Positions 9,385-57,635 of a DNA stretch of 64,000 nucleotides are shown in pieces. This DNA is from Cytidiella melzeri (Eukaryota > Basidiomycota > Agaricomycetes > Polyporales > Irpicaceae): NCBI GenBank assembly GCA_022592445.1, contig JABYQR010000196.1, positions 20,976 to 84,975 on the forward strand. Reading direction: 5' to 3'. Under the pieces are notes generated by a model that ran no database searches, was not told where the DNA came from, and saw only the letters and a list, made by a program, of their open reading frames with translations. Each line of letters starts with the position of its first letter. Positions within the stretch are counted from its first letter, which is position 1. Both the position numbers and the translations under genes were made by a program.

Positions 9385-9429
9385 CTAGCGTTAGCAGGGC
9401 CGGCAAGCGGCAAGTACAATTCCTGAAGA
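9385..9429 (-). repeat. H1 3' terminus: hairpin plus CTAG
   Basis: On the minus strand: CTTCAGGAATTGTA, then ACTTGCCGCTTGCCGGC with a 4 bp stem (GCCG/CGGC), then CTAG, with T as the next base. The first 14 bases are the reverse complement of the element's 5' end (one mismatch in H1). The same terminus occurs at 37866, 50152, 51221 and 34877. Confidence 0.85.
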
Positions 9430-9551
9430 CTTGATACATTTCCCACAATATCATGAATATCAATAAATCAGAATTCAATATCACGCAGGTTATACATTTC
9501 TCGCAATATCATAGATATTAATAAATTAGACGTCATTATTGCACAGGTATC

Positions 9552-10432
9552 TTAAACATCACAAGATGTGCAAATTGCTACAATACTGGTCCAACTGTGT
9601 TTTGCTGTTGCCAACATGTTGCAGCTTACACCATTCATGTTTTCATCATATTCAGTATGTCTACCTGTACTTATACCATCATGGAACCACAGATCTCCGT
9701 TATCACTGACTATACAAGATGTATAGTGATTATTTCCATAGTAAATGATGCCACGCAGTTTGTAATTGTATCCACTAACGTTTATAACATGTTGGAACCT
9801 GACTACCGGTTCTTCCTATATACACATTGCAATGAACGGTGGTGCATGATCAAATTTGTATATATTCTCCATTACGCTGTGACAGTCACTGCATTTCTTT
9901 CCAGACTTTCTTCTCAATAGAGCTGTCATCCATGCAAATGTAAATTGAGCATTACATGTTCCTGCTCGTTTTGCTTTATTTCTCCATGCAGAATTTGTAC
10001 ATCGCCACATTAGAGAGTTGGAAAATAAACTAGAAGATTTGTCATTTCGACATACAATGCAGTACACAGTTTTGACAATATGGCTAACATCAGGTTTGAG
10101 TAGAAATTCATATAATTCTCTAACATTATTGCCTGTTGTACTGATTGAGAACACACTTGGATCTTTACAATGAAATGCAAGCTGTATACGGTCTCGAGTT
10201 TCATCTATATTATCTGAGTCAAGATCTACACCTTCAAACATGTCACAAAATATTTTTAAATATTCATTTGTTGTTGATGTCAATTTACACCATTCTTCTG
10301 GTGTATGCCTCATAATGCTCAATATCATAGTGAACATACTATCAAATGCACAGCTATATGTTTGACCATTCCATACAAAACCCATGGGGCCATTGAGTAC
10401 AGGTATACGGTCATTGATATTTGTTTTTCTGC
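9552..10432 (-). pseudogene. USP-like ubiquitin protease domain at the end of the H1 helicase gene
   Basis: The domain opens with NGQTYSCAFDS (Cys box, near 10370), followed by a cysteine-rich finger (VYCIVCR .. WRCT .. CSDCHS). It closes with YNYKLRGIIYYGNNHYTS (His box, near 9740) and LWFH. This layout is that of ubiquitin-specific proteases, and such domains are known beside helicases in some fungal Helitrons. An in-frame TAG at about 9811 splits it, where the H2 copy has GAG. A one-base insertion near 10430 (five T versus four in H2) separates it from the helicase frame. In H2 the two frames join, so the ancestor was a helicase-USP fusion. The substrate is unknown. Confidence 0.75.
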
Positions 10433-11794
10433 CATTTACATGGCTGGGTGGAACTTTCCTGATGTTCAGTTACTTTCTGTCTACGCTGTTTATTGATACG
10501 AACACCTTTTAGCCTACTCAGTTGATTGATCTGTACAGTACCCTGAACAGGAATATATCGCACGGTGTCGGTATTGACTCCCAACGGTTTTTTCTTGCTA
10601 GTCTTAGGTTTAGATGTGGATTGTTTTGTCAGTCTTTTCTTTTTGTCAAGTACTTGCCATTCTGCTTCTTGGAATGGATCACCAATATTATAGGTGTTGA
10701 TTAAACCCCATTGTAACGGACTAGGCATTGTTCTAGGAACATAGTCACTTCCTCTTGCATATCTACATGATGATATTAGATGGCTCCGTGTTGTACCATC
10801 TACACCCTTGGGTAATTTGTTTTTGAAATGCAATCTTGTAAGCTCATCTAGCAATGCTAACTCTTGGAACTCCTGTCCCAAATATCCAGACAATCTCCCA
10901 GTCATGTGTTTATCTGAGAAATCTTGAGCAATAATAGTACCCTGATATGTTGAACCTCTTGATAAGCAAGTGTACATAGACTGGTGACTGCGACAATTGT
11001 GTATGTCAACAACATTGTACCTCCTTGTCTGACCTTGGGATGTGTAGTCCATCATGCCTAACTTTACTATTACTGTACACGGTTTATAGTTCTTTGCATG
11101 CCATCAGGATGCTGACAATCACATTTATAGGTTCTGCTGTGACAGGCACCACATCAGGTTCCAATCCATCTAGTTTGATTGGTATTGGTGGTGAAGTTAG
11201 CTTTACAAACAACACATCTAATGTGCTGTGATTTGCGTCTATAGGCTGAGATTCCCACCCAACTACAACACCTTCTGCTCCATTAGTCACACCACACTCT
11301 GTTGCTTTGTTCTTCTTAATCATAATAGGCATTCCTATACAAGTACCTAATTTGCCAGGATGGTTTCCAGTATTTCTTGAAGGCAATGACCAAAACACAG
11401 CTTGATCTTGTGGACAAAGGCAGTCAGTATTCCATGATGGATCTGCTTTTGTTTTACGGATCTTGGTAAAAAGCTTTGTCTCATCATTGTTGGAGCTATA
11501 ACAATCTACAGAGTAAAACTAACTCAGAGTTTGATGGGCCTCTTGCGAGAATCGTTCTGCGCCTCTGTCATTGAATGTATCTCTACTTGCATTGTAAGAT
11601 GTTATAGTTGACACGTTACGGAACACAGTATTGGACCACTTTTGTCAATTTTTTGAAATACCAGCTATTCTAGTTTGCAGAAAAGTAATATCTTCTTTGG
11701 TACAAGACTTGTACCTTAAGTTTTCTAGCAAAATGCAGAACTTTGCATCTTCATCTGTCTGTGAATTTTGTCTCATGTTGGTGCGTAAGATGAC
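10411..11794 (-). pseudogene. Pif1-like Helitron helicase, C-terminal part (H1)
   Basis: Minus-strand frames with DYTSQGQTRRYNVV and YTCLSRGSTYQGT (near 10960-11050), the last helicase motif of Pif1/RecD-type enzymes. 11084-11398 holds the preceding helicase segment (PSRNTGNHPGKLGTCIGMP). The tail after motif VI is Lys-rich (KKKPLGVNTD) and leads to the USP domain. Frames shift several times. The same sequence, differently broken, is in H2 at 38871-39434, 40412-41001 and 50153-50345. The helicase would unwind the transposing strand. Confidence 0.75.
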
Positions 11795-12504
11795 TGACAT
11801 GGATAGTCCAACAGACTGGATTTTTCCAACATTATCACAAGTTGACAGCCTTAGGCGCCTATCTAGAGCGCTTATTTTCAGGCTAGGAGTGTTACCAGAC
11901 CTAACCCTAACCCGGGTCACGTGACATCCTGCCTTATTTATCAATAGTCCAGACCCAAACCCTAGACTCAGTCTGGAGCAGTTCCAGATCAACCTAGGCT
12001 ATTGTTCTATTGTTCTTCTTCCATTGATAGGGATTCCCCAGGGATTCCCCCAGGTTTTATTGTTCTATTGTTCCATTGTTCTATTGTTATAACTTTATTG
12101 TTCTATGTACCCTGGTCCTTGACAGTTACTCAGGTCCTTGACAGTTACCCTGGTCCCTTATTGTTCTACAGTTACTCCAGCCCCACAGTTACTCCAGTCC
12201 CTAGTGTGGGAACTTGTGCACAGACCACCCAGCCACAGTATATATAGTAGCCCTCACCCTCCCTAGCTCTGCATCTTGACCTCTCTGTCATTTGCACTGC
12301 TAGGTGAGTTACTGCATGTAACTTAGTGTCATACCTTATTAACTCTGTCATTTGCACTGCTAGTATCCGGCCTCTGTGCCTGCTTGCCTGCTCATCATCG
12401 ACTCTGACCTTGTTGTCGTCGTTGGAGATCCCTTTCCTTTTCCACCATCATCCATTCCACCCTTGTTTAGGGTTTAGCAGTATAGCAGCAGTCGATCCAC
12501 GACA
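11795..12504 (+). mobile_element. Solo LTR-B inside the H1 helicase
   Basis: 710 bp from TGACATGG to CCACGACA, with ATGAC duplicated exactly (11790-11794 and 12505-12509). The H2 copy at 50346-50356 is the empty site, with one ATGAC and no insert. The LTR contains CACGTG, several TTCTATTGTTC repeats, a TATATATAG box near 12239, and two CCCTAA units that are not a telomere. Confidence 0.95.
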
Positions 12505-12927
12505 ATGACCGCAGTGGTAAACTGATGCCATATTGCTTTACCTAAAGCAGCTTGCTGATCCTTATGAGACTGTGCTGCATGGATACCAGACTGAACAGTA
12601 CTTGAATAGAGGGTGTCTCCTGTTGATACTGGGGGAAGCTGTGCAAAGTCTCCTGCAAAGATGGCATGTTTCCCTCCAAATGGTTCAGTCTCATTGTCCA
12701 AGGCCATACACATTTGTCTGCTAATATTTTATAAGTTGAAACATTCATATCTTATCCATAAATATGTACTCTACATACTGCAAGTTACTATTGATTTCAC
12801 TTAGAGCTCCTAGTTGTTCAGTTCTTACAATAAGGGTTGATACCTAGGATAAAATGATCAGTAGAACCACCAATCAGTGATGCAGCTGATCGAGTAGGTG
12901 CCATACAAAAAAACCGATAAGCTTAAT
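12505..12927 (-). pseudogene. Pif1-like helicase, middle part (H1)
   Basis: The minus strand shows GDFAQLPPVSTGDT (near 12640), the helicase motif III region, and GGKHAIF before it. It continues to an ADSSAAS-like stretch near 12870. The frame is broken at several points. It continues the helicase across the LTR-B insertion and is interrupted again by LTR-D at 12928. Confidence 0.75.
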
Positions 12928-13154
12928 TGTTGTTATTTTAGGTTTGCCGCCTCAAGTTTGTTTGTTTCCGCTTGTTCCCGCCGCCCGCCTTTGTCATTCC
13001 GCGCGGATTACCTGACTCGATATTCCCTTTTTGTGTTATCCGTTTTTCTAAAATTATATAAAAACCTTTGTATTTGCGCCTCTCCAGAATAACATTGTGT
13101 TCATCCCTTCGAGCCCCCTTCCCGTGCGCGCTCCTAAACCCTGCAAAAACAACA
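12928..13154 (+). mobile_element. Short 227 bp LTR-like insert (LTR-D) inside the helicase
   Basis: Begins TGTTGTTATTTTAGG and ends AAAAACAACA; TTAAT is duplicated on both sides (12923-12927 and 13155-13159). H2 near 50750 lacks the insert. TG..CA ends, a 5 bp duplication and a TATATAAAAACC box at about 13055 suggest a very small solo LTR, as in TRIM or SMART elements. A MITE is the alternative. Confidence 0.7.
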
Positions 13155-14030
13155 TTAATTGTGACAGGTATAAAAATGTATCAATGATTTAATAACTTGA
13201 GTTTCCTGTACCAGCCATTCCACCCAAATACATCTTCAGCTGAGATAGTTTTTCAAGTGTTGAGTCATTTGCTATGATTTTGGAAGCCCTGGCCTGTTCA
13301 GTGTTCAATGTATAGCTACTTAAAAATTCATTGATAAGGGAGCGATCTTTCTTAGATGCTGCTTCAAATATACTTTCATAATATGGAATATCAATGACTT
13401 CTACAAGATCAATAGAATAGTTGTGCTTTTTAATTGCCTTTGATGGAGCTTAAAATTTCAGCTTTGGTCTTGTTCAATAATTTTTGCCAATGATAACAGC
13501 TTGGTGTTGTATCATTTTTCCATTGGATATCAACAGAGTGGTCATCTGCATTCAAAAACCCATTCCTTTTGAGCAGGTCTTCAGTATCCATCATATGTTC
13601 TAGCTGTAATATTGTTGATCTGTTGATAGGTCCCATGTCTGTTACATTATGCTCATCAAAACCACATTGTTCTGAATCAAGTATACCAATGAATTCTTCT
13701 TCAGTTCCGTCTAGCATGTCATTACCAAAGTATGGTGGCATAGAAACAACATCTAGAGTTTTTGTTTCTTGTTGTGCTGCAAAATCATCTCTGGCATCAT
13801 AACATTCATATTGCAGATTGAAATTATTTGTAATATATGTGTATCGCTGGGGAAATTTGTAGTTGTTGAACTCATCACTCCAAGTCAAGTCTTTTGACTT
13901 TAACTCTAAACACGAGCGCCATGAGTTGAAAAGTGCCAGCATAGTCATACAGTAGTCTTTTTGATTGCCTTTATCTTCTTGCAGTAGGATACCATCTACA
14001 AAGTCTACACACCTGATCCCTATTAAGGGT
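13155..14030 (-). pseudogene. Helitron helicase, Walker A region and N-terminal linker (H1)
   Basis: The minus strand shows YLGGMAGTG near 13230, where H2 reads GGMAGTGKS. H1 has lost two bases inside the Walker A motif, so it reads GTGNSS and then shifts frame. Upstream (13430-13948) is the linker typical of basidiomycete Helitron proteins: TMLALFNSWRSCLELKSK, TWSDEFNNYKF, and NLQYECYDARDDFAAQQ. Upstream of about 14030 homology to H2 (58020) stops. The Rep domain expected before this point is absent. Confidence 0.75.
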
Positions 14031-14515
14031 GGTTCGAGACACTGACAAACGTCTCATAGAAGGTGCTGATAAGTAACAAAGTGAATGCTACATGGAGATA
14101 TCAGGAGAGCCACTTGAAGTGAGGAACGGAGTGATGCACAGTCCAATAGATGCTCTTGTCCACTTGATTGAGGAGAGAGTGTCCATCCCGGAGAGAGATA
14201 CATGAAATTACAACTACAGCAAACCACAAAACATGTCAGCCCTGCAACACCAAGCCTACACAACACAACAAGAGCAATGTGGTATTGCACAATGCCACAA
14301 CTGTTGCATCATATGACCAAATATAGCCCTGCGTGTATAGAACAATAGGAACAAACATGTACTCACTGTTTCTGTCATTTCAAGACCGAGTACAAAGCTG
14401 ACCTTGAGGATTGATGAGTGAGATATAGAGGTGAGAGTTCAAGTGTATGGAGGTGAGAGGGGAGTGGCAAACGGAGGGAGCACTGTCCTCATGCACCACG
14501 AAGTGTAACTCGCAC
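14031..14515. other. Unassigned stretch between helicase and permease remnants
   Basis: No gene or element was recognised. The open frames here are short and resemble nothing I know. The right edge (14484-14515) shares about 32 bp with 25418-25450 in the same orientation. Confidence 0.4.
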
Positions 14516-14706
14516 TGCAGAGCCAATAGCCCGTGAATTTTGCCGGTCAAACGTGTTAGGGAAGTGGATTTGCACGATAAGGAGTTGAATGTTGGCGAAA
14601 GTTGATATCGAGCGAATATCACGGGGCTGGCGTTAAAATGACCTCGTTCGACTTGGAGCGTAAAATTTGCACAACAAGGGGTATTTACAACAACATGCTG
14701 AGCTCA
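14516..14706 (-). repeat. Repeat flanking the permease block, left copy
   Basis: About 190 bp, highly similar in reverse orientation to 25218-25409. Shared marks are CTCAGCATGTTGTTG at one end and GGGCTATTGGCTCTGCA at the other. With the right copy it brackets the permease and foldback segment as an inverted pair. Identity as an element is unknown. Confidence 0.65.
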
Positions 14707-14814
14707 GCAGGTGAATTTCACCGCTTCCTCGGCGTTGGCGCCATAATATATCATATCATCTGCTATAGCTACATACATATATATGTATAACTTATTGGCA
14801 ACAGTTTCTATAAG

Positions 14815-14901
14815 GGGTATGTATGTAGATATAGCTGCATGGCCTCTCAGACCTAAACCAAAAAGAACACGGGATGCGGCAAACAGGAAAGAGTTGCCAG
14901 C
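14815..14901 (-). pseudogene. Amino-acid permease remnant, part 3
   Basis: Reads on from part 2 after removal of the LTR-B insertion: GNSFLFAASRVLFGLGLRGHA, a conserved loop and membrane segment of fungal amino-acid permeases. Sequence similarity then ends near 14815; about half of the transporter is missing downstream. Confidence 0.75.
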
Positions 14902-15593
14902 TGTCGCGGAGCGACTGCTGCTATGCTGATAAACCCTAAACAAGGGTGAAGAGGAGAGGAAGTGGGAGTGGAAGTAGATCTCCAACGACGACAACGAGGT
15001 CAAAGTCAATGATAAGCAGGCAAGCAGGCACAGAAGCCGGATACTAGCAGTGCAAATGACAGAGTTAATAAGGTATGATACTAAGTTACATGCAGTAACT
15101 CACCTAGCAGTGCAAATGACAGAGAGGTCAAGATGCAGAGCTAGGGAGGGTAAGGGCTACTATATATACTGTGGCTGGGTGGTCTGTGCACAAGTTCCCA
15201 CACTAGGGACTGGAGTAACTGTGGGGCTGGAGTAACTGTAGAACAATAAGGGACCAGGGTAACTGTCAAGGACCAGGGTACAGAGAACAACAGAGTTATA
15301 ACAATAGAACAATGGAACAATAGAACAATAAAACCTGGGGGAATCCCTGGGGAATCCCTATCAATGGAAGAAGAACAATAGAACAATAGCCTAGGTTGAT
15401 CTGGAACCACTCCAGACTGAGTCTAGGGTTTGGGTCTGGACTATTGATAAATAAGGCAGGATGTCACGTGACCCGGGTTAGGGTTAGGTCTGGTAACACT
15501 CCTAGCCTGAAAATAAGCGCTCTAGATAGGCGCCTAAGGCTGTAAACTTGTGATAATGTTGGAAAAATCCGGTCTGTTGGACTATCCATGTCA
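14902..15593 (-). mobile_element. Solo LTR-B inside the permease exon
   Basis: 692 bp, TGTCGCGG at 14902 to CCATGTCA at 15593, reversed relative to the copy at 11795. CCAGC is duplicated exactly at 14897-14901 and 15594-15598. It interrupts the permease reading frame between the AFFAG and GNSFLF stretches. Confidence 0.95.
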
Positions 15594-15649
15594 CCAGCAA
15601 AGAATGCAGAGGTGAAGATGCAGGCGTTGACAATGTGTGAGAGGACTTT
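15594..15649 (-). pseudogene. Amino-acid permease remnant, part 2
   Basis: On the minus strand: KVLSHIVNACIFTSAFFAG, which continues the permease frame that breaks off at 22932-22944. The 13 bp GTGAGAGGACTTT occurs at both break points, so the intervening LINE is the cause. Confidence 0.8.
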
Positions 15650-16965
15650 TTTTTTTTTTTTTTTTCTCCTTGTTTATTGTCCTTGAGGGCTACGCCCTAT
15701 GGTAGACAAAGTACATCTGTGCTACTGCTACGCAAAATATGTGTGTCTGAAAAGCAATCGTGATCAAAACGTATAGGGCAATGATTACCCTTGTTGTGCG
15801 TCGGAGGGTTTTTGGTATTACTGGGAGTGTATTGGGTTGTATCGGAATGAGAAAAGTCAAGGTGCACCTAAGGACTCGAGGGGCTCTGCCGACTTAACGG
15901 GAGAGACTGGGATCTAAACCTGCTACCCATACTGGTGGACGTTGATCCCCTGGGCTGTGGCCTCTTGCGGTAACAGGGATCCGGGTTGCGGTCCTCCGCC
16001 CCCTGTTGAAACTCCCCCAGTCTCTGTCGCGGAGCAACTGCTGCTATGCTGCTAAACCCTAAACAAGGGTGGAATGGATGATGGTGGAAAAGGAAAGGGA
16101 TCTCCAACGATGACAACAAGGTCAGAGTCGATGATGAGCAGGCAAGCAGGCACAGAGGCCGGATACTGGCAGTGCAAATGACGAAGTTAATATAATGCTT
16201 ATACTAGGTTACATTGAGTAACTCACCTAGCAGTGCAAATGACGAAGAGGTCAAGATGCAGAACCAGGGAGGGTAAGGGGTACTATATATACTGTGTCTG
16301 GATGGTCTGTGCACCAGTTCCCACACTAGGGACTGGAGTAACTGTGGGACTGGAGTAACAATAGAACAATAAGGAACCCGGGTAACTGTCAAGGACCGGA
16401 TTAACTGTCAAGGACCTGAGTAACTGTCAAGGACCAGGGTACGTAGAACAATAGAGCTAGAACAATACAACAATAGAACAATAGGATAAGAACAATAGAA
16501 CAATAAGACCTGGGGGAATCCCTGGGGAATCCCCATCAATGGAAGAGGAACAATAGAACAATAGCCTAGGTTGATCTGGAACCGCTCCAGACTGAGTCTA
16601 GGGTTTGGGTCTGGACTATTGATAAATAAGGCAGGATGTCACGTGACCCGGGTTAGGGTTAGGTCCGGTAACGCTCCTAGCCGGAAAATAAGCGCTCTAG
16701 ATAGGCGCCTAAGACTGTAAACTTGTGACATTATTGGAAAAATCCGGTCTCTGTTGGACTATCCATGTCAGTCTCTGAGCTTCAGGTTGCGCGTGAGAAC
16801 TTATAAGTGTGCCTGCGCTGCCATGGATTCTTTTCTCGCCGTGTGACGGTGTGTCCTGGACAATGTGGCCGGCCTCTGTCAGCTCGGGGTGCGCATTGTT
16901 ACGGGAGGTACTTCTCTTTGGCGTCGTTTAGGTATCGTTCTCCTAGCTCCTTCCACTCTACGTAG
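15650..16965 (-). other. 3' untranslated region of the LINE
   Basis: No ORF. It holds the T-run at 15648-15665 (oligo(A) tail on the element strand) and the solo LTR-B at 16025-16770. Confidence 0.7.
16025..16770 (-). mobile_element. Solo LTR-B inside the LINE 3' region
   Basis: 746 bp, TGTCGCGG to CCATGTCA; GTCTC is duplicated exactly at 16020-16024 and 16771-16775. It is younger than the LINE, which is itself younger than the permease copy. Confidence 0.95.
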
Positions 16966-19900
16966 TCACCTCCTCCTCCTTTTCCTTCTCTTTGTCGACG
17001 CCTCCTTTGGTAGGGACAGGCTTCCTAGGGTTTTTGCGAAGCGACCTGTGGCGTGGATGTATCGGAAGAGGGAACGTATGGTGCGAGCGTTGCTGAGGAG
17101 GTTAGGGATGGAGCGGGCTGGGCGTCCCAGTTCGTATGTGATTAAGTCGCGGTGTCTCTCGTATGCTGGGCACTGGAGCAGGAAGTGGTCTACCGTCTCT
17201 GGGTACATTTCGCAGGCGGGACATGTTGGTGAGGTTGCCTTTCCGATGTGGTGAAGGTGACGGCGTAAGGGTGCATGGCCTGTGCGAAGTTGGAAAAGAA
17301 GGGCTGCGTGTCGTCTGGGTAAGTTCGATACAAGGTCAGCGAAACGGTCTGATGGTAGGGTAGGGTCTATTCTGCTTAGTCTTTGGTAGCGCAGGGACTT
17401 TTGCCAGAGTTGCTTCGCCGCCTCCTTGAGTTCTGCCGTCTTGAGTTGTTTGAGCTTGGACGCGCTGATTGGGAGGGCCTGTCTGAGTATGGGAGGCATT
17501 CGCACTGTCTCCGATGTGTTGCCATGTGCCGCCTCCTTCGCCAATACATCTGCCTCTTTGTTCCCTTCCACTCCGCGGTGACCGGGTACCCAGCGTATTG
17601 TGAGCTTGAGGGTTTCGTGTTTCGTCTGTAGCTTCCTCGCCATTCGGTGGAGTCCGTCTAGTAGATAATGGGCTGGCCCGGGGTCCGCTGATCTCAATGC
17701 TAGGATGGCGGCCTTGTTGTCCAAAGCGATAAAGGCCTTCCCCTCCACCCGTGTTCTTATACCCATGAGCATATGCATCCCTAGTAATAAACCTACCAGC
17801 TCTGCCTCGTATACCGTGTGCTGGTCTGAGGTCCCTAGGTAGTGTCGTAAGACCTTCTTTGTTGTGCGTCGTTTCCCCTTGATGTACATGGCCGCTGCTG
17901 CCCCTACACCTCCGTCGATGTCTGAGCCGTCAGAATAAATGTGGTACGTAGCTCTTTGTCTCCAAGCTTTATCCCTCTTTTCCGCCTTGCTCTTCTCCCC
18001 TTTGATCTCCGTTGCGAAGTTCGGTCTCCAGTAGGGCGAGAAACGTACGGGTGCAATCTTTTCGACGTGCTTTGGGTCTAGGCAATAGCGGTGTAGGAGA
18101 TCATGGATGGGTGAGCGATGCTTCTTCACGTACGATTGCCTTGCCTGCGAAATCAGTTTTGTGAGCGGGTGCGAATTCGGAAGGGTGCAGAGATGTAGCG
18201 CGGATCTGTGACACAGTTTGTCTATGGTCAGGCGCATGGGCAACATGTTTGCGTGTACTTCCATCACGTCTGTCGCTGTTGTGCGCATTGCTCCCGTGAC
18301 CATGATGACTGCTTGTTGCTGTATCTGCTCTAGTCTCTTGATGTGTCCAAGTGAGCCCCTTGCGTTTTGGCGGCTGGAGTTTGTAACTGGGGGGACAAGG
18401 TAGACGTCAGCCGCGTACAAAATGCTTGGTATGGCTACCGTCTGATACAGCTTTTTCGCCATTGCTGCTGAAATTCCCCTCTTCGTGTTTGTCATGCGCT
18501 TGAAGAGGGCTAGCCATTGCTGGCCTTTCCCTACCGCCCTCGCGACTTGCTCTGTCCAACGAAGCTGGTGATCTATGCGTACCCCTAGGAATGTGTGTGA
18601 CTTAGCTGGTTTTATTTGTGTGGTGCCCAGATCCAGCTCGGGTCCCAGCTCACGCGCGTTTCGTCAACAGTTTAGTAGGCCGAATTTCTCAAGGGAGAAC
18701 TGTGTGTTGTGCGTGTCCGCCCATTCGAAAGCCCCCCCTGCTCTCGTCATGTAATCCTTCAGCTTCTCATGCGTCTCCTCGTAGCTTTTCCCTATCGTGA
18801 TCACCGCTACATCGTCTATGTTCCCGGTGGCGTATTGCCCTTTGGCTGGGTCTGCTGCGTCGATGTTGCTCGAGTTGTAAATTTGGTACGAGATGACGGA
18901 CGTAGGGCACCCTTGATCTAGCCCACCAATGACGTCCAGGGGGGGTGAGACGTAGTCGTTGAAGCATAATACTACCTTTCTGTCTGCCATCTGCCGTCTC
19001 ATCCACTCCACTATTTCCGGTGGGAAACCCCTCATCCGCATGTCGTGAAAAAGCTGTGCCGGAGTGACGCTAGGAAAGGCCGCCTTGTTGTCTAGGAAGA
19101 GGATTGAGGCGTACTGTCCTTTTCTCCAGGCTGCCTTGATGGTCGACACAACGTAGTGTAGGGAATCTGTGGTAGTACGACCTGGTCGACCGAGGAAATG
19201 ATTATTGGAGATGAGGGAGAGGGACTCAGCTTTCTTTGTGATGATCTGTGTGACGCACGCCGCCAGTATTTTTGCTACGCAGGGCAGGAGAGCGATTGGG
19301 CGGTACGCATTTGGGAGGGTGTAGTCCTTCTTCCCTGGCTTCCGTAGTACAATCGTTCGCGCGGTTTTCCACTCCTCCGGGTAGACGTTCAACGCGAATG
19401 TGGCCTTGAAGATGCGGTGAAGGAAGGGGAGGAGCGTCTCGCTGCAGTTTAGGTAGACCTTGTTCGGCAGGTCGTCGACACCTGGCGCCTTGTATCTCTT
19501 CAGGGACAGTAGCACGGTCTGGACTAAGGCTTTCGAGATGCCAGTGAACATGAAGGCTGGCGTGGGGTACGCGAGACTACCCGTTGGGTTGGGGTCGGGT
19601 CCTGGGCTTGGGAAAAAAGTTTTTTCTCAGCACCTCGCATTTCTCATTGTTTGTCTCCGCCAGCCGCAGGCGCTGGAGGTGGTCGGTGTAATGGAGGTGG
19701 GGAATACACACCTTGCTTCCGTCTGACTGCCCCCCCTTCACGTATTTGCTGAAGTTCCTGACCGTGTCTGCTTTGATTTCCTCCAGATACGTGTTCCAGT
19801 GGTCTGTTTTCGCCCTGGTATCTGTTTCTCGCCTTGCAGTATTCCCTGTGCGCCGGGTGCTGTGGGACGGCATGAAACTGATACGACACTCTAGCTAGCT

Positions 19901-22765: not shown

Positions 22766-22931
22766 GTCGTCCTCCTGGCGGTTCTCTCTAATTCTAATGA
22801 CTATGTAAGGTATGTAATATGTTCTCTAAGGTGTGTTCTGAGTCTCTCAAGCGTCCGTGTCTTCACCAAGAGGAATTCCCAACCATGGGAATTCTGTTGC
22901 CAGTGAAGGTCAGAAGCAAGAAGGGTCCCCC

Positions 22932-41978: not shown

Positions 41979-42026
41979 TGCAGTGCCCGCGAACTGTGGT
42001 ACCACAAAATTGCGGTGTTCCGACAA

Positions 42027-44918: not shown

Positions 44919-44932
44919 CACACATCCGAGTT

Positions 44933-46231: not shown

Positions 46232-46245
46232 CACACATCCGAGTT

Positions 46246-47757: not shown

Positions 47758-47859
47758 CTGATGAACAAGTGGATTTGTGGTACTCAGCCTGTATGTCTCA
47801 TATGCTAACCTTGGCTCTACAGCGCTCTGTTGAAGGACGTCAGAATTTTTGAAGGCGTG

Positions 47860-48251
47860 AGATGTGGCTACCATTGATTGCGAGCCGCTGTGGGGCAGGC
47901 TAGGCAACGCTCCGTCCATAGCTAGCATAGTAGTCTCGGTCTCTGACCCTCTGCACGCTGCCACGTGCGCTGCCTTCCTGTTTTGGAAGCAAAGGACAAG
48001 AATGTCTGGTGTTTTAGTCTCGAACCTAGGGTTTTGTCAGTGAGTCAATATTAACAAACACGTGGCAGTAAATGGTGTTACTTACATGTAAGTAACATGT
48101 AAGTAACACCGAGGGCATGGACCAGCAAAAATGTCATGCATATAATTGTTGGCAAATGTTATAAATGCTACAGATTTTGAGAGGTCTGATTACATGGAAT
48201 CAACAACAAGCCCTCAGTGCAAGGGCTGGATGGAGTCTTTCACCCTGGAAG
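47860..48251. other. Non-coding stretch after the p40-like gene
   Basis: No gene seen. It contains the perfect hairpin at 48074-48110 and ends at a hAT-type terminus. Confidence 0.4.
48074..48110. repeat. Perfect 15 bp hairpin
   Basis: GGTGTTACTTACATG, a 7-base loop, and CATGTAAGTAACACC. It could be the relic of a small inverted-repeat element. Confidence 0.75.
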
Positions 48252-48590
48252 TAGTGCTTAGCAAATAGCATTAAATATTCCAACTGGGCTGTATTTATGA
48301 TTACCATTGAATACCAATGTCACATGTTGGATATTGAATAATAATGTATGTAATAGTATTGGCATTGGTTAGTATTGGTATTCATTGGTATGAACTGGTA
48401 ATTGATGATATAGTCAATGTTTGGGTGATTCAAGTTCAAGTTCTTGCTCACCCTGAGTCCCTGATTGTCTTGTATTTACAACTAACACCTTATACATTGT
48501 GAGATGCACTCATGAAGACTGCAAGATGGTATGCATGACTATTAGTATACACTCTAAGTAGCATCACCTACATGCATCACTAGAGCTAAA
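48252..48590 (-). mobile_element. End fragment of a hAT transposon
   Basis: It starts at the hAT terminus TAGTGCTTAGCAAATA and matches 56620-56953 in reverse for about 330 bp. No second end and no target duplication were found. Confidence 0.7.
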
Positions 48591-48822
48591 ATGACAGCTT
48601 GAAGCTTACTGGTGTATTGAATTCCTATTTGATGGAGAGTTGTCTGGAAAATCTACGCTGGAGTGGTGGGAAGATCTCCAATATTGCCGTGGTGCTCATG
48701 AACTTGCAGTATGTCTTCTTGAGCAACATTGATTTTTATCATACTAATCATAGCAAAGATGGTCAGCATCAAGATCTTTTCAGTTCTTGTGACCAACAAA
48801 ACAATATACATTTAAACCTGAA
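48591..48822 (+). other. Unassigned sequence before the H3 helicase remnant
   Basis: The open frame at 48599 is not recognisable. Homology to the H1/H2 helicase tail begins at about 48823. Confidence 0.35.
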
Positions 48823-50046
48823 GCTACCAAGAAAAAACCATTGGGAGTTAATACTGATGCCAGACAATATATTCCTGCTCAGGGTACTGTACAGATCAGT
48901 CAACTGAGTAAGCTAGAAGGTGTTTGTATTCATAATAAGTGTAGACATGAAGTAGCTGAACCTCTGGAAACTTCTACCCGGCCTGCTAAATGTCAGAGAA
49001 AAATATCAATGACTGTATACCTGTAATCGATGGTCCTACAGGATTTTCATGGAATGGTCAAGCATATAGCTGTGCATTTGGTAGTCTATCCACTATATAT
49101 ATTGAGCATCATGAGGTATACACCAGAGGAATGGCATAAATTGACATCAACGACAAATGAATGTTTGAAAAATATTTTGTGACATGTTTGAAGGTGTAGA
49201 TACTGACTCAGAGGATATAGATGAAGCTCAAGACCGTATACAGCTTGAATTTTATCGGAAAGATCCAAGTATGTGCTCAATCAGTACAACAGGCAATAAT
49301 GTTAGAGAATTATGTGAATTCCTACTCAAACCTGATGTTAGCCATATTGTCAAAACTGTATACTGCATATTATGTGAGGAAGATATATCTTCCAGCTTAT
49401 TTTTCAACTCTCTAATGTGGCAATGTACAAAGTCTGCATGGAGAGATAAAGCAAATCAAGCAGAAATGTGTAATGCCCCAACTACTTCTGCATGGATGAC
49501 AGCTCTATTGAGAACAAAGTCTAAGAAAATGCAGTGACTGTCACAGCATAATGGAGAACATATAAAAATTTGATCATGCACTGCCGTTCATTGCAATGTG
49601 TATAGCGCTATTGGAGTGAGGATTGGGCACGTGCAAGACAAGGTAAACCACTTAATAGAAGAGAAGACAAGTTCTAGATACATGATGTAGGTACTTCTAG
49701 ATTGAATTCCCGTCAACTGTATAGTCCGGGAAATTCTGCGTAGTGTGAGTTGCACCGGTGAGGCACTTACCCAACAATAAGAGCAAGAGCTGGTTTTCAG
49801 ATTTCAACATGTCATGAACGTTAGCAGATATGATGACAAACTGCGTGGCATCATTTACTATGGAAAAAATCACTATACATCCGGTATAGTAAGTAATAAC
49901 AGAGATCTGTGGTTTCACAAGGGTATAAGTACAGGTAGACATACTGAATATGATGGAATAATGAGTGATGTAAACTGAAACATTTTGGCAACAGAAAAAC
50001 ACAGTTTGACTATTACTGTAGCAATTTATACATGTTGTGATGCTTA
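48823..50046 (+). pseudogene. Helicase tail and USP domain remnant of H3
   Basis: KKPLGVNTDARQYIPAQGTV (helicase tail) is followed by the Cys box NGQAYSCAFGS (near 49055), then CSISTTGNNVRELCEFLL, the finger cysteines, and a partial His-box region near 49840-49900. About 180 bp without counterpart in H1/H2 sit at 49605-49785. Multiple stops. The remnant is on the plus strand, so H3 has the same gene polarity relative to its 3' end as H1 and H2. Confidence 0.75.
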
Positions 50047-50107
50047 AGATACCTGTGTAAGATTTCAAATTCATTGATATTGATGATATTGTGAGAAATG
50101 CATAAAG

Positions 50108-50152
50108 TCTTCAGGAATTGTACTTGCCGCTTGCCGGCCCTGCTAACGCTAG
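50108..50152 (+). repeat. H3 3' terminus
   Basis: CTTCAGGAATTGTA, CTTGCCGCTTGCCGGC, then CTAG at 50149-50152. The following TAAGATG is helicase sequence of H2. Confidence 0.88.
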
Positions 50153-51220
50153 TAAGATGTTATAGTTGACGCGTTACGGAACACAGTATGTGACCAATTT
50201 AGTCGATTTTTTGAAATACCAGCTATTCTAGTGTGCAGAAAAGTAATATCTTCATTGGTACAAGACTTGTACCTTAAGTTCTCTAGCAAAGTGCGGGATT
50301 TTGCATCTTCATCTGTCTGTGAATTTTGTCTCATGTTGGTGCGTAGGATGACCACAGTGGTAAACTGATGCCATATTGCTTTACCTAAAGCAGCTTGCTG
50401 ATCCTTATGAGACTGTGTTGTATGGATAACAGACTAAACAGTACTTGAATAGAGGGCATTTCCTGTTGATACTGGGCGAAGCTGTGCAAAGTCTCCCGCA
50501 AAGATGACATGTTTCCCTCCAAATGGTTCAGGCTAATATTGTATAAGTTTAAACAATCAATCTTGGATATCTCATCCATAAATATGTAGTCTACATACTG
50601 CAAATCACTTTTAAATTCACTTGTAGCACCTAGTTGTTCAGTTTTTTCACAATAAGGGTTGATACCTAGTATAGAATGATAAGTGGAACCACCAATAAGC
50701 AATGCAGCTGATCCAGTAGGTGTCATACAAAGGAACTGATAAGCTTTATTATGACGGGTATAAAAATGTATCAATGATTTGATAACTTGAGATTTTCCTG
50801 TACCAGCCATTCCACCCAGATACATCTTCAGCTGAGATGTTGAGTGATTTGCTATGATTTTGAAACCTCTGGCCTGTTCAGTGTTCAATGTATAGCTAAT
50901 TATAATCTCATCAATAAGGAAGCAATCTTCCTTAGATGCTGCTTCAAATGTCTTTTCATAATATGAGATATCGATGACTTCTACAAGATCAATAGAATGG
51001 TTGTGCTTTTTGAGTGCCTTTGATGCAGCTACCTGTCCTTGTCGATTGCTCAAAATTTCATCTTTGGTCTTGTTCAATAATTTTTGCCAATGGTAACAGC
51101 TAGGTGTTGTATCATCTACTGTTGGTAGACATTGGATATCAACAGAGTGGTCATCTGCATTCAACACACCATTCCTTTTGAGCATGTCTTCAGTATCCAT
51201 CATACGTTCTAGCTGTAATA
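50153..51220 (-). pseudogene. Helitron helicase core of H2 (Walker A and B)
   Basis: The best-preserved helicase part: 50385-51220 on the minus strand is one frame. It shows NTEQARGFKIIANH (Q-motif region), YLGGMAGTGKSQVI (Walker A, near 50810), PTGSAALLIGGSTYHS and YVDYIFMDEIS (Walker B, near 50580). This is a Pif1-family helicase, as in Helitrons. 50153-50384 continues the gene in other frames. The left end joins H3; the right end joins N3 at CTGTAATA (51220). Confidence 0.85.
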
Positions 51221-51949
51221 CTAGCGTTAGCAAGGCCGGTAAGCAGCAAGTACATTTCCTGAAGATTGCATGAAATATTACTTTTTGAGCCAGCTTTGTA
51301 AGTAAACATGGTGCTGGTAGCAGCCTGAACAAGGAACTTTGTTGGGAGTAGCTTCTTCAATGAGTAATGTATAGTAAGTTGGTGGTTTGTCTTTACTGGA
51401 GCACACAACTATTCATGAAAGAAGAGGGACTGTGCTGTATTGTTTGAAGTGCAACGATGGGTGTGAGTATAGAATTAAAACAATTTTTTAAGTAGACCAT
51501 GCAGACAAAGATTGTTTGAGATGTGTCTTCTTCTTAATGGTGTTGAACAATGTTGAATAATCTAGATACAATTTTGTAAACTGCAAGAGCAGGGTTACAA
51601 GTGATTATGTTACTGATAGCAAATTGAATACATCATATAGCAGGAAATAGTTAATTGCACCTGTGACTTTGTTACCAGAAAGAACCTCAGTGAACAACTC
51701 TGGTCCTGGTAAGGACCTTGCCAAGCCATAGCCAACTTGATCAGGGATAAAATGACTGTACTGCAATTGATAAGTTTGGTTGCAGAAAAAGGAGCCATAC
51801 ATTGATGAAGGTAGTCACCAATGGTAGCAAGGGGCTTTATCTATCTTGTCATTAATCTTGTGCAGTGTTCACTGCTGATTCTAGAAAATTACTTCCTTCA
51901 AGAATGAAGGGCTTGAGGGCGTCTCATTAGATCAATTGCTAGAACATCT

Positions 51950-52600
51950 TACATGTGTCCTGTTGATGTCTGCAATGCCTCACCCCCATCGGAGCTGCCA
52001 CAGGCTGGGTTCTGATTGTAACTTCTGCTTATAGAGCCACTAGTGGTTGTGAAACTGTGTGAAAAAATTGCAGGCAGTGCTCTATAATAATGCAACCACG
52101 TTCTGTTGATGTCTGAACTGCATCAGCCCCACTAGAACTGCCACAAGCTGAGTTCTGATTGTAACTCCTCCTTCGACAGTAACTAACAATTGTCACACTT
52201 TGTGGAACAATCTGATGTAGTGCTTGCTGCCGATGCAACCATGTCCTGTTGATATTGGAGCTGCATCACCCGTTTTGGAACTGCCACAGACTGTGTTCTG
52301 ATTGTAACTCCTCTTTAGAGAGCAACTAATGGTTGTTGTGAAAATTTGTGGAACAATTTGATGCAGTTCTTGCTGCTGATGCAAACATGTCTTGTTGATG
52401 TCTGAGCTGCATCACCCCTATTTGCACTGCTACAGTTGTAATTTCTACTTAGAAAGTAGTGGTTGTGACACTTTGTGGACCAATTGAATGCAGTGCTGGC
52501 TGCTGATGAAACCACGTCCAGCTGATGTCTGCATTGCCTCACCCCCATTAGAGCTGCCACAGGCTGTGTTCTGCTTGTAACTTCCTCACATAGAGCAACT
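51950..52600 (-). repeat. Minisatellite of N3
   Basis: About five units of the ~130 bp repeat in reverse orientation (marks: CAGGCTGTGTTCTGATTGTA, CCTGTTGATGTCTGAACTGC). More units are at 53378-53603 and 56962-57050, on either side of the inserts. Confidence 0.8.
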
Positions 52601-52648
52601 GGTGGTTGTGAAACTGTATGGAAAAATCAAAGTCAGTGCTCTATGGTG

Positions 52649-53373
52649 TGTCACAGATTTTCAATGTTTCTACAAGACTTGCCTTACCAGGCAACGGTAT
52701 TATTGGGAATATTTAAGTGCTTGTCAAGCGCTTATCCAGTGCTTATCCGGCGTCTATTTAGGCGCTTATCCAGCGCTTATCTGGCGCTTATCAGGCGCCT
52801 ATTCCGGCGCTTATTCTCAGTGCCTATCAATTGATGCGCTGATGCGCCTCCTGTCTCTGATGCGCTGATGCACTCCTTTCCTTATCTGTGTATCACATGA
52901 TAGAACTCTCTGGAACATTGTGGAACATGCTGGAACTATGATGTCATAGTTTAGAACATTCCATTAGATGATGTCATAGTTCATAGAACCTTCTGGAAAA
53001 GTCTAGCCTTGTCTTAGAACAAGCTAGAACAAGTCTAGCCTTGGAGCTGGGTCATGGGGTCAGGTCATGGGGACAATTGCTATTGGTTGATTATTGAAGT
53101 GGCACCACTAGGGCATAGGGCATGCTTAGTAAGGTAGATTACTTCGCTTACTCATGTAGGTATTAGGGGTCTTAGGGTAGTACCTGGGGTCCTCCCCTTC
53201 ATGTATATATAGAGGCACTCCTGAGGGCATATCCCCTCAGTGTTATCCACTCTGTTGATCAAGGACTACTTCGTACTCCCCAGTACTCACTCTCACCAAC
53301 ACTCTACTCTCTATCCCACTATCTCCCCTTCAAGTTTAACAACTATCTGGTGAGTGTAACCTTGACTGTTACA
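52649..53373 (+). mobile_element. Solo LTR-C, complete
   Basis: 725 bp from TGTCACAG to CTGTTACA; TGGTG is duplicated at 52644-52648 and 53374-53378. It holds about eight imperfect AGCGCTTATCC units (52727-52815), GATGCGC repeats, and a TATATATAGAGG box at 53205. It is the reference for the split copy at 27538-28117/9253-9384. Confidence 0.95.
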
Positions 53374-53948
53374 TGGTGATGCAACCACGTCCTGTTGATG
53401 TCTGAACTGTGTCAGCCCCATTTGAACTGCCACAGGCTATGTTCTGAATTTATCTCCTCCTTAAAAGCACTTACAAAATGCCAATAATGGTTGTGAAACT
53501 TTGTGCAACAATCCAATGCAGTGCTTGCTGCTGATGCAATCATGTGCTGTTGATGTCTGAACTGCCTCACCCCTATTGAGACTGGCACAGGCTGTGTTCT
53601 GACTAGTGCTCTGCAAAAATACCATTATAATGCAATATAATCTCAGAATATCATTAAATACCCATTAAATACTTGCTTATGGAATTTTTTTTAGAATACA
53701 ATTACCATTAAATACAATACAATACATTACAATACAATACAATACTATTCCTGTATTTAATGGTATTCTAAAATATTATGCATGTGACAAGTTTTGAGCA
53801 CATGCATGTATGTACAGCCTCTTTCCTACAATTTGCACTGTTCATACACCCATACACAGTTTTTCAATGCTGCATAGCTACCTTAATCATTTGCACTGCC
53901 TTTGTTTTGCACTGCTCATGTACTCATACACACTTGTTGATGTTCCAG

Positions 53949-54266
53949 CTATGTTTGTGTGATCTTTGTCTCTCCACTTATACAGACTGTTCCCTATGTT
54001 TTGCACTGCTCATGCATCTATGTACAAGTTTTCATGTTGCGTAGCTACCTTGATCATTTGTACTGCCCCTGTTTTCCACTCCTCATGGATTCATACTTGT
54101 TTCATAGTGTTGCAACTATGTGTTCCAGCTATGTTTGTGCGATCTTTGTCTCTCCACTAATACAGACTGTTCCCTATGTTTTGCACTGCTCATGCATCTA
54201 TGTACAAGTTTTCATGTTGCATAGCTACCTTGATCATTTGTACTGCCCCTGTTTTGCACTGCTCAT
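53949..54266 (+). repeat. Tandem duplication of about 180 bp in the hAT element
   Basis: GCTATGTTTGTG.GATCTTTG to TGCCCCTGTTTT.CACT occurs at 53949 and again at 54129, nearly identical. It gives the repeated frames seen there; these are not genes. Confidence 0.75.
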
Positions 54267-54420
54267 AATATTACCCTGATTGAAGGACTTTGTCATTGCA
54301 TTGTAAAGCGTAACAAGGATGTCCAGCTTAATGCCAATGATTGTCAAGTAGGCTGTGGTCTTCACGTAGGACATCTTGTTGTGCAGTTAGTGCCATATTT
54401 TCTCACAGCTTGACAGCACA

Positions 54421-56502
54421 TTGACTATCAGAAGAGAGCTACTATTTGGCCTTGGACGAGAAGTTAGCCCAGAAGAGGAAGATCTGTACCTTTGTGCTCG
54501 TGAGGTACTTGTCAATGAAGCAGAAGTTGAGGCTGGAGAAGCTGTGTTAGCCAGAGAGGCCTCTGAACAGGAGAAGCTACCAGATAACAATGAGAGTGAT
54601 ACTGACTCAGAGTTGTCTAAGGCTGAATTTGTCAGCAGTGATGAGGACATGGGAGAGGCAGTCACTAGTACTAAGAGGATGTCAATAAAAGCAAAACAGG
54701 AACCAACTGTTGCTGATAAGGTAAGACACTGTTCCTTAAATCACTTGAGCTAATACAGTGGTCAGCTCCATGCTATTGTGGTAGATGTTCTGCGAAGTGA
54801 GCCATGGCACAAGAAAATGTGTCAGATCATCCAGAAAATGTGCAGCACAGAGCATCATCATCTTTATCTTAAACGTGGTATGCCCATCTGGTGAAACACA
54901 ACTCTGGCAGAGATTGAGCGGGGCATTCTTCTTCGAAATGTATGTGCATTCTTGGCATTCTCCAGAGAACTTTGAATCTGTACTCATTTTATCCTAGGCT
55001 ATCACATTCTGGGCTAACACACTGCCTGACGGGCTACGAGGCAAGAAAAGAGCAGCAGCTGTTTGGAAGCAAGCCAAGTTAAACATTGATCCCAAAGGGT
55101 GGCAATTTTTAGAGAATCTTGTGGAAATACTAGCAGTCAGTTTAGCTATCATCACTTGTTGTTTGATTGTCTCCCACTTCACCTCAACAGCCATTCAAAG
55201 AATTCACAAGCAGTCTATCACAGAAGAAAGTTCCAACACTTCCACAACTTCTTCCACTCTATAAGCATCTTGAAAACCATCTCAGTAGTTGTTGTCTTGA
55301 TGCACACTTTTCAGCTCCAAATCTGCAAAAGGCATTGTCCATGGCACTTGCAAAGCTTGATAAGCATATGCAGATTGCATTTAAGAAAAATTTCCCCCTT
55401 CTAGCTGCTGGTAAGTACATATACACTAGGCTATTTATTGATATTTCCAGCTCTTGCTCACGGACAAGGTTACCTTGTTCTTTTCATTGTTCTTTTTCTA
55501 TATGAATCACATGGTAGTGTAGCTTCATTCCCGCGGACACAGCTTTGTTGATTATCAGTTCCTTATTGAGCCATCTCTTGTTGTACTATAAGAGTTCACT
55601 CATTCCTCTCTTTTCCCCCATCGTGCTTTCTTCCTTCGCACCTTGGGGTAAGTTTGTCTCTCTCTCTTGCACTTGCAGTATGTACATATGCTGATCCTGT
55701 ACTCAGCTTACTTGCTCGACGCTTGTGTCTAGGTACAGTTATTAATGATTGTGCTCTCTTGCTTTGCACCTTGGGCTTACTCGCTTGATGCTTGGTCTAG
55801 GTACTCAGAGGTATGACAGTGTTGTTAGGTCTTAGCAGCGCACACAACCCTGCCCTTTCGACGTATCTGTTGTTACTATTCAGGCTGAATTGACATGACT
55901 CTGCAACCACAGTCCTTCATCCGTCTATCCGGCTGAAGTATTTTGAGACAGCAGATTGGGATCAGGCAGTAGCAGCTCAAGCAGAGCGTCTTCTCAGAGA
56001 GGTTTATACCCAGTATTCTTCCGCTCTTGCCAAAACCTTGCAGTCTGCCAACACACCCACATCTGCACAGCCAGCCAACAAGTCAAATTTTGCATCTGCA
56101 ATAGCCTTTGCATCAGTCACATCAGCTGCTCATTGGGAGACTGAGATAGAGCTTTACCTCAGTGGTGCACATTCTCCTCAGGATGATGAGGATGTACTTA
56201 CTTGATGGAAGGTATGTACCACATTTCACACAAAATTGTGGTCCTTGCTAACCAACTTGCCTATGGAGAGTCATGCAAAGGTCTTTCCCACCCTCTCTCA
56301 CATTGCACGAGACATTCTTGCAATTCCTGGTGTCAGTGTCTCAGTTGAGAGGCTATTCTCATCATGCAAGCACACTATGAGAGACTCTCACTCATCTCTT
56401 GGGGCCAGGAAGGCATCAAAGACTGTTATCTCAAAGGAGTGGTTACAGATTGGGCTTGGTGAGGGTATTGAGTATCTCAATGGTGTGTCTATCTGGAGCA
56501 AG
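54421..56502 (+). pseudogene. hAT transposase, interrupted by introns and a stop
   Basis: Recognisable exons begin with an acidic stretch (EAEVEAGEAVLAREASEQ, 54421-54720) and a segment with SEPWHKKMCQIIQKMCS (near 54800). Next are FWANTLPDGLRGKKRAAAVW (55006-55139), PLYKHLENHLSS (55190-55409) and HPSIRLKYFETADWDQAVA (55920-56210). Last is the dimerisation domain FPTLSHIARDILAIPGVSVS with ERLFSSCKHTMRD (56280-56502). The last part is diagnostic of hAT transposases. A TGA at 56203-56205 replaces a Trp codon (TGG). The N-terminal BED zinc finger was not found. Exon limits are approximate. Confidence 0.75.
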
Positions 56503-57635
56503 TAAATGTCATTGACTGCAGCTATGGCCACCTGTGTGTATTAGCATACATGTACCAATTTTTTCAAAGTCTATGTAGTAGCACTGTCCAGTTGCAAGAC
56601 AACAGAACATACCAAACTCCAATGAAGTAGTGGTAACATATACAGTGATGCTACTTATAGTGCATACTAATAGTCATGCATACCATCTTACTGTCTTCAT
56701 GAGTTCATTGTACAATGTGTTAGCTATAAATGCAAGACAATCAGAGACTCAGTTGAGCAAGGACTTGAACTTGAATCACCCAAACACTTACTATATCATT
56801 AAATACCATTACATACCAATAAATACCAATACTAACCAATACCAATACTATTAAATACATTATTATTCAATACACATCACGTGATATTGGTATTCAATGG
56901 TAATCATTAAATACAGGCCAGTTGGAATATTTAATGGTATTTGCTAAGCACTAGTTCTGACTGTAACTCCTGCTTAGAGAGCAACTAACAGTTGTGAAAC
57001 TCTGTGAAACAGTCAGATACAGTACTCACTACTCAGGCAGCAACAAAGTTACATTGTCCAAAAATGTGGGGATTGAGAATTTGTAGTTAGCTTCCAAAGT
57101 ACTGGTAGTTCTTGCTCAGAGCCAATACTATGTGTGGCATGTCTTCTAATTGTATTCCTTGTTCAGAGAGCAAGCAATGTCTGTAGACTGCTGCACATGT
57201 ACCTGACCAGAATTTGACATCATTTTCCAGCAGGAGTGGAGTTTGATTCTCAGTCTGGATGACTTTTTTCACTAGACTGGCCATCACTTGCTCAATTCCA
57301 CTTCAATTGACAGGATGTTTGTACCAGGATGTTGCCATAAGATAGGGCTATCTAATGAGGTATTAAATCTACAGGTTTGTACTTAGATGCAGTCTGAAAA
57401 AATCAAACACTGCATTTTGATTGCAAAAGTGATCTGATACCAAGTTATGAAGGGCTGATCATAAGGCCAGTGTGATGCCATCAGCTGTATTCATTGTTTT
57501 GTTATGAAGACTGTTACTCTCTGTATTCCTCCATTAAATTCCCACACTTTGGGGGACAAAAAGGTCACATCTGAAAAGGCATCAATGTGCTGGAGCACAC
57601 TGGGACAATTCTTCTTCATTCTTCAGGAATTGTAA

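Follow-up and report, generated by a model that had tools for sequence, protein, structure and literature searches.

Within a 64,000-nucleotide stretch of the genome of Cytidiella melzeri, a polyporalean basidiomycete and wood-decay fungus, we find members of a transposable element family that is very probably a non-canonical Helitron family, associated with a HUH-Y2 Rep and PIF1 helicase protein (RepHel). Its ends consist of a 14-bp asymmetrical terminal inverted repeat (ATIR), a 5' hairpin, a 3' hairpin and CTAG. These ends pair with each other in one orientation, and the elements insert without duplicating their target. The stretch, hereafter the window, corresponds to positions 20976-84975 of contig JABYQR010000196.1 (C108 in our numbering) of assembly GCA_022592445.1, and the genome searched comprises 49.7 Mb in 731 contigs. 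No papers on C. melzeri were found among open-licence PMC papers.

The common 5' end of the family is TTACRATTYCTGAAG, and the common 3' end is CTTCAGGAATTGTA followed by the hairpin, CTAG and a next base T. Elements start with TTAC, i.e., with 5' TT (the end reads TTACRATTYCTGAAGAATGAAGAAGAATYGT), and the 5'-ATIR TACAATTCCTGAAG begins 1 bp inside the element as the left arm of the 5' hairpin ACAATTC...GAATTGT. The 3'-ATIR sits 30 nt before the element end, just upstream of a GCCG-CTTGC-CGGC hairpin located about 10 nt upstream of the terminal CTAG. The order at this end is 3'-ATIR, CTTGCCGCTTGCCGGCCYTGCTAACGCTAG and then the flanking T, and the full 3' ends of the window read ATIR plus CTTGCCGCTTGCCGGCC.TGCTAACGCTAG or a near variant, with T as the next base. 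Such full 3' ends lie at 9385 (-), 37866 (-), 34877 (+), 50152 (+) and 51221 (-), and 5' ends at 27537 (-), 57635 (-), 40411 (-), 36603 (-), 28898 (+) and 41002 (+). The elements discussed below are H1 (18.15 kb; 9385-27537, minus strand), H2 (9.15 kb, gene-carrying; 41002-50152, plus strand), H3 (6.4 kb, minisatellite-type; 51221-57635, minus strand), N1 (6.0 kb, minisatellite-type, enclosing a partial 5' copy near 32010; 28898-34877, plus strand), N1b (37866-40411, minus strand) and H0, an older RepHel copy (37866-58873, minus strand) hosting nested H3, H2 and the 5' piece of N1b. It had been stated in a preliminary description of this DNA that the 5' repeat is the exact reverse complement of a block about 30 bp from the 3' end. 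This is true over 14 bp in A-type ends, but the 5'-ATIRs of H1 and H2 (TTACGATT...) have one and two mismatches, respectively, to the complement of their own 3'-ATIRs.

That the 5' and 3' ends are shared, as first noted, is confirmed by their abundance. With up to 2 mismatches, the 14-mer CTTCAGGAATTGTA occurs at 13 window sites (7 exact) against 0.63 expected, a number reached in 0 of 100 shuffles. Its exact form is found at 623 genome sites, and the 5' and 3' end patterns, allowing up to 3 mismatches, at 472 and 416; each reversed control gave 0. The same ends enclose helicase-containing, gene-carrying and array-bearing copies ranging from 1.3 to 18 kb.

The definition of the family hinges on whether both termini also co-occur elsewhere in the genome. 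This was examined with the exact ends listed for contigs up to C176, 93 of them 5' and 57 of them 3'. Of the 57 3' ends, 31 are preceded on the same strand, within 10 kb, by an exact 5' end, compared to 4 with one at that distance on the wrong side, and the definition stands. Shuffling the strands gave a mean of 18 and a maximum of 27 at 10 kb, and 31 was reached in 0 of 2000 trials. With a 3 kb limit, 22 of 57 were paired (shuffled mean 12, maximum 19). The test was restricted to exact ends, and copies with worn ends score as misses.

Empty sites were sought by joining the flanks of 31 end pairs; where a 3' end had alternative 5' ends, each combination was tallied as a pair. The pairs came from 20 stretches, each 9.6 kb long and chosen to surround a listed exact 5' end, from loci L037, L038 and L003, and from the window. 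In the stretches examined, 11 of the 31 queries matched across the junction, 8 of them cleanly. Clean sites of window elements are TCAG|TCTT for H1 (found in L001, at window 53141-53340 and at others), ATTG|TAAG for H2 (found in H1 at 11495-11694, L037 and L038) and ATAA|TATT for H3 (found in L038, at 97%, in L037 and in H1). The other clean sites are ATTG|TCTA (L018), CTAG|TTGC (L019), TTAG|TTAC (L020), ATAA|TTTG (L023, 83% identity) and CTTT|TGTC (L025). No target duplication was present in any of the 8, and insertion was directly before T, so the exact, duplication-free junctions anticipated for the family are indeed seen, H1, H2 and H3 among them. The breakpoint is ambiguous by one base because the element and its 3' flank both start with T. 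Several 5' ends precede a single 3' end in L018, L019, L025 and L028; since the empty site matches the outer 5' end in L025 and the middle of three in L019, elements with doubled 5' ends have moved. The first 3' flank base was T in 29 of 29 distinct flanks, in line with the earlier claim. A purine before the 5' end had also been claimed; it is found in all six window flanks, but genome-wide it is a preference, with G in 20, A in 15 and T in 5 of 40 distinct 5' flanks. The target is R^T, a purine being preferred before the T.

H3 and H2 both sit in the helicase gene of H0, the pieces of which are at 57635-58873, 50152-51220, 40408-41002 and 38325-39435 (minus strand). RepHel positions are uninterrupted at both insertions, reading 3572 on either side of H3 and 4681/4680 around H2. 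A repeat related to the Gypsy-type repeats described below breaks the H0 RepHel at 58874.

The genome contains 12 PF14214 Rep matches. Rep copies L011, L012/L038, L014, L015/L037 and L016 are alike in DNA and constitute the lineage linked with the family ends, an assignment that leaves out matches on C610 and C448. L037, with DUF6570, Helitron_like_N and PIF1 domains, has the family ATIR and hairpin at its 3' end (9126), and H0 has an intact end. At the level of sequence, the shared 3' end and the shared helicase link the family ends to this RepHel lineage. We take its motifs to be HMH and a Y-x3-Y pair, to which L038 adds a GTGKS Walker A. A search with L038 gave 546 relatives, of which 120 were listed; the five named ones are from Piloderma, Athelia (three) and Amanita. 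L038 had no match to Helraiser at E ≤ 0.001, and its local helicase match had E 0.011. Two more RepHel lineages were observed in this genome, one of them Helraiser-like (L009, 620 bits, E 3.7e-185, and the closely alike L010) and another distinct (L013).

Several observations weigh against the interpretation of these elements as one Helitron family moved by this RepHel. We found no intact autonomous copy that retains both ends, nor the 5' end of a RepHel-coding copy in L037, L038, L011, L014 or 3 kb further upstream of L038 (L045). The 3' end of L037 is worn, with GATGG in place of CTAG. No exact 5' end lies within 10 kb of 26 of the 57 exact 3' ends, and 20 of the 31 joined-flank queries, including those of N1 and N1b, gave no empty site in the stretches examined. 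Three of the 11 matches were poor, with junction mismatches in L027, a gap in L036 and 70% likeness in L026. Finally, the folding energies of the hairpins are weakly better than those of shuffled sequences (z -1.6 for the 5' hairpin and -0.8 for the 3' hairpin).

The family had been called Helitron2-like. Its end structure, the co-occurrence of its termini and its duplication-free sites agree with that name, but CTAG, TT and R^T resemble proto-Helentrons. According to the defining passages of PMC3627910, Helitron2 elements have an ATIR of 8-15 bp, a 5'-ATIR located 0-2 bp from the end and within a 5' hairpin, a 3'-ATIR located 20-30 bp before the 3' terminus and immediately preceding a hairpin, and a 5' T. 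The family agrees in ATIR length, in 5'-ATIR position and hairpin, in 3'-ATIR position and in 5' T, and it shares with the elements of those passages both hairpin placements and compensatory changes that preserve structure. It differs from them in its 3' CTAG, in an added USP-type domain and in its target, which is R^T and not TTTT^T/C; the latter is also the Helitron2 target in the Fig. 2 legend of PMC5148889, where Helentrons are given T^T. Subterminal inverted repeats, a 3' stem-loop and central tandem repeats in non-autonomous copies are traits of Helentron/HINE elements that are present here, while the endonuclease is not seen (no intact autonomous copy being available) and T^T does not describe the target (T in 5 of 40 flanks). 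A fungal proto-Helentron instead of a Helitron2, with 5'TT, 3'CTAG, insertion before T and no endonuclease, is possible if somewhat doubtful, and it overlaps with the interpretation that we prefer. The relevant text of PMC4067079 describes proto-Helentron-Pi of Phytophthora infestans as having 5'TT, 3'CTAG, A^T insertion and no endonuclease. The family has the same 5'TT and 3'CTAG, it likewise inserts before T without duplication, and no endonuclease domain was detected in 4 scanned relatives or among the domain annotations precomputed for the 120 listed ones. However, ATIRs and a 5' hairpin are Helitron2 traits that go unmentioned for proto-Helentron-Pi in that text, the base before T, which is A in proto-Helentron-Pi, is here a purine (A or G) and G at least as often as A, and the USP-type domain is a further difference. 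We prefer to regard the family, on its sequence features, as Helitron2-like with outer ends of proto-Helentron type.

Two other explanations fit the data less well. An assignment to canonical Helitron1, with movement by the Helraiser-like RepHel of the same genome (L009, L010), would explain the 3' CTAG and the hairpin about 10 nt upstream of it (Helitron1 has 3' CTRR with a hairpin 10-12 nt upstream) as well as the target before T, and a suitable protein is available in L009 (620 bits). It is nonetheless very unlikely, because the elements begin with TT and not TC and carry an ATIR and a 5' hairpin where Helitron1 has no terminal inverted repeats, and because the RepHel joined to the ends (L037, H0, H1, H2) belongs to another lineage than the Helraiser-related one of Helitron1, with its local Helraiser match at E 0.011. 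L009 and L010 also lack family ends in the 3.5 kb examined, a weak point as L011-L016 lack them too. The inverted-repeat character of the ATIR and the 143-bp tandem arrays within many copies might instead suggest cut-and-paste elements resembling miniature inverted-repeat transposable elements (MITEs), or plain satellite arrays with a shared motif. This is hardly credible: the 8 of 8 clean empty sites without duplication already contradict it, the ends are asymmetric, and the same ends bound helicase, gene and array copies of 1.3 to 18 kb.

Other described elements share part of these features. FoHeli1-5 of Fusarium oxysporum, in the portions of PMC5148889 considered, resemble the family in ATIRs, hairpins, exact pre-insertion sites, several 5' ends, self-insertion and non-autonomous forms, but have TCAG...ATTTT or TGCCT...CTCCTGT ends and, for FoHeli1 and 2, a TNAT^A target; unlike the USP-type domain found here, an extra protease is not mentioned in those portions. 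DINE-1/HINE elements, as presented in the corresponding section of PMC4067079, are non-autonomous, with subterminal and 5' inverted repeats, a 3' stem-loop and, in some, central tandem repeats, but they prefer TT targets and have partners with an endonuclease domain. HELPO1/HELPO2 of Pleurotus ostreatus, also a basidiomycete, share a CT(A/T)G 3' end, captured genes and a subfamily satellite; they have a T(C/G) 5' end, and ATIRs are not described in the sections of PMC4289320 concerned.

N1b had been listed as a simple member of the family. We reject this in favor of a chimera, as N1b appears to be a nested 5' end (40411-39436) fused to the 3' part of its host H0 (39435-37866), about 30 bp of host sequence and the original 3' end of the nested element having been lost. 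The H0 helicase ends at RepHel 5299, and directly after it comes a family 5' end, inserted at GCAG^T. A 976 bp stretch of 5' module and minisatellite follows, after which the helicase restarts at RepHel 5326 and continues as far as the H0 3' end at 37866. Searching with the 34-mer spanning the N1b junction (up to 3 mismatches) gave one other genome match, which is exact (C86:46198-46231). The C86 copy is about 95% identical to N1b, but its 5' flank is a different one, which is not helicase and has 86% likeness to part of L021. The most economical reading has the chimera arise in H0 and then move to C86. Against this, the helicase part at C86 stops after about 560 bp, giving way to sequence that also occurs in L026 and to another repeat. 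The 3.4 kb examined there show no 3' end, and movement as a complete unit is therefore something that we infer. Alternatively, N1b could be an independent small element inserted in H0, the remaining 3' part of H0 having been lost. The clean GCAG^T insertion at its 5' end and the copy elsewhere with another 5' flank would fit this view, but the start of its helicase part about 30 bp past the point where the H0 helicase stops (5299 vs 5326) would then be a coincidence, and we consider it unlikely.

The ends fall into two types that co-vary. In the 100 listed of 277 5' ends, the hairpin arm bases were A..T in 77, G..C in 14, A..C in 8 and G..T in 1. From 99 of these 100 5' ends and 68 of 100 listed 3' ends (contigs up to C179), 41 pairs were formed. 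Arm bases and 3'-ATIR base were A..T/T in 29 pairs, A..T/C in 1, G..C/C in 5, G..C/T in 2, A..C/C in 2, A..C/T in 1 and G..T/T in 1. The A..T/T pairs have a median span of 2.2 kb and the other twelve pairs span 6.8-18.9 kb; both mixed G..C/T pairs are H1 and H2, which carry gene pieces. As read from these ends, a large gene-carrying subfamily stands beside a small minisatellite one, and the large one carries matched changes at three sites by which both hairpin and ATIR stay complementary. The sequences show that arms and ATIR co-vary; the cause of this is one that we infer. Two points speak against this interpretation: the counts are non-independent events and may reflect a single lineage change, and the arm bases are mismatched (A..C) in 8 of the 100 5' ends listed.

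The RepHel of the family is predicted to end in a USP-type cysteine protease domain, located in H1 at 9555-10442 (minus strand) with one in-frame stop. The predicted structure shows the USP fold, including Cys, His and Asp as well as zinc-type cysteines. No Pfam sequence match to the H1 C-terminal domain was found. This predicted domain also occurs in 61 of the 120 listed relatives. It may remove ubiquitin or a ubiquitin-like tag and so protect the transposition machinery. Among open-licence PMC papers, none was found pairing Helitron with USPL1, and for Helitron plus ubiquitin carboxyl-terminal hydrolase only PMC9741609 names Helitrons more than twice. The VTD deubiquitinase of animal Helentrons, as characterized in the pertinent part of that paper, is likewise a Helitron-encoded cysteine protease of deubiquitinase class, but it has an Asp-x-His active-site motif and belongs to endonuclease-bearing Helentrons, whereas here a USP fold is joined to a RepHel without endonuclease.

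H2, which has a G-type 5' end, contains a captured HMG-CoA synthase gene, from within the N domain on, with its 3' flank (42039-44720, plus strand). Compared with L041, this region is 94.3% identical over 2.7 kb, with homology up to the end of L041 and the intron kept. L041 has the upstream exons and is taken, from this similarity, as the probable donor or a close relative. The C-terminal part of the gene has 19 matches on 14 contigs, including the window's own and L041 (L039-L044; C5, C20, C52, C108, C128, C173, C179, C222, C284, C385, C421, C433 and C595). Eight of 14 N-domain matches start at an identical profile position, 86, which points to the probable amplification of a single capture. 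A simple ratio of non-synonymous to synonymous substitutions for 6 copies, the donor-like L041 included, ranged from 0 to 0.28. In a spectrum-matched simulation against L041, non-synonymous changes fell short of what neutrality predicts in all 5 copies (of 2000 simulations, those not exceeding the observed number: H2 2, L040 0, L042 1, L043 97 and L044 1). However, coding and non-coding divergence from L041 were nearly equal in 4 of 5 copies (0.050 and 0.053 in H2), L044 being the exception with 0.059 coding vs 0.099 non-coding. Because of this similarity, and because the L041 gene itself is expected to be constrained, we do not claim selection on the captured copies. The H2 copy is apparently in public databases as a 377-amino-acid gene (P0126), though it lies inside a transposon. 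L040 and H2 are 98.5% identical over 742 bp near the 5' end and 94.7% in the captured gene, an unevenness that hints at gene conversion or a mosaic origin. A helicase C-terminal fragment (48797-49579, plus strand) precedes the 3' end of H2. An RNase H-like frame at 45206-45856 (minus strand; PF00075, E 1.5e-4, below cut-off) is perhaps a retroelement remnant.

We discard an autonomous-type reading of H1, as this element holds the helicase half of RepHel alone (9844-14005, minus strand; pieces 13155-14005, 12505-12928 and 9844-11796 by blastn/tblastn with L038), with an altered Walker A, and no PF14214 Rep match is listed on contig C108. Its 5' end TTACGATTCCTGAAG (27507-27537, minus strand) comprises the ATIR and a G-type 5' hairpin, ACGATTC / GAATCGT. 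Its 3' end (9385-9428, minus strand), CTAG|t, comprises the 3'-ATIR (9415-9428), the GCCG-CTTGC-CGGC hairpin (about 9399-9411) and CTAG. An amino acid permease fragment (PF00324, E 7.2e-17; 23842-24063, minus strand) was presumably captured by H1. At 16966-22825 (minus strand), frames resembling gag with zinc knuckles, endonuclease, reverse transcriptase and RNase H were recognized by eye; this is probably a long interspersed nuclear element (LINE) inserted in H1, presumably Tad1-like.

No RepHel matches were found inside H3 and N1 in the search with L038. A minisatellite with 143-bp and related periods occupies 29483-30616 (plus strand), other arrays are at 33258-34143, 35678-36024, 39447-39829 and 51892-52648, and minisatellite matches are present in many of the family loci examined. 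Isolated remnants of the family comprise a degenerate 3' end (motif at 37614, minus strand), a worn 3' end with no recognisable 5' end (28335-28378, plus strand) and N2, a 5' end with no recognisable 3' end (36573-36603, minus strand). A repeat of about 730 bp has four window copies (11795-12507, 14902-15593, 16025-16773 and 32423-33151), two within L037 and one in L046, and is perhaps a MITE or a solo long terminal repeat (LTR). By eye, Gypsy-type retrotransposon sequence with LTR-like repeats of about 690 bp occupies window 536-8924 and from 58866 on.

A mechanism for these elements can be proposed. Rep would nick the element 5' end, the helicase would peel off one strand, and replication would run to the 3' terminator formed by ATIR, hairpin and CTAG. 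The single strand (or circle) would then join the target just 5' of a T, preferably at R^T, without duplication. A nested 5' end could use the downstream sequence and 3' end of its host element and found a chimera, as in N1b. Tentatively, and at slightly less than even confidence, the family may represent a distinct fungal clade that bridges two groups, sharing 5'TT, 3'CTAG and insertion before T with proto-Helentrons and the ATIRs and two hairpins with Helitron2, and having acquired its own USP-type deubiquitinase as a third class of Helitron protease after OTU and VTD, with new families arising when a nested 5' end takes over a host 3' terminator, and with end recognition through the co-varying ATIR and 5' hairpin.

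The mixed end type joins two classes that were described separately. Chimera formation by self-insertion is proposed as a model in the parts of the Fusarium study at hand (PMC5148889), and N1b, with its likely birth locus and its junction elsewhere, offers sequence evidence for it. With hundreds of ends, several empty sites and two subfamilies whose 5'-ATIR, 5' hairpin arm and 3'-ATIR have changed in step, the role of each end part becomes testable. If the USP-type domain on RepHel is real, Helitrons would have recruited ubiquitin removal on more than one occasion.

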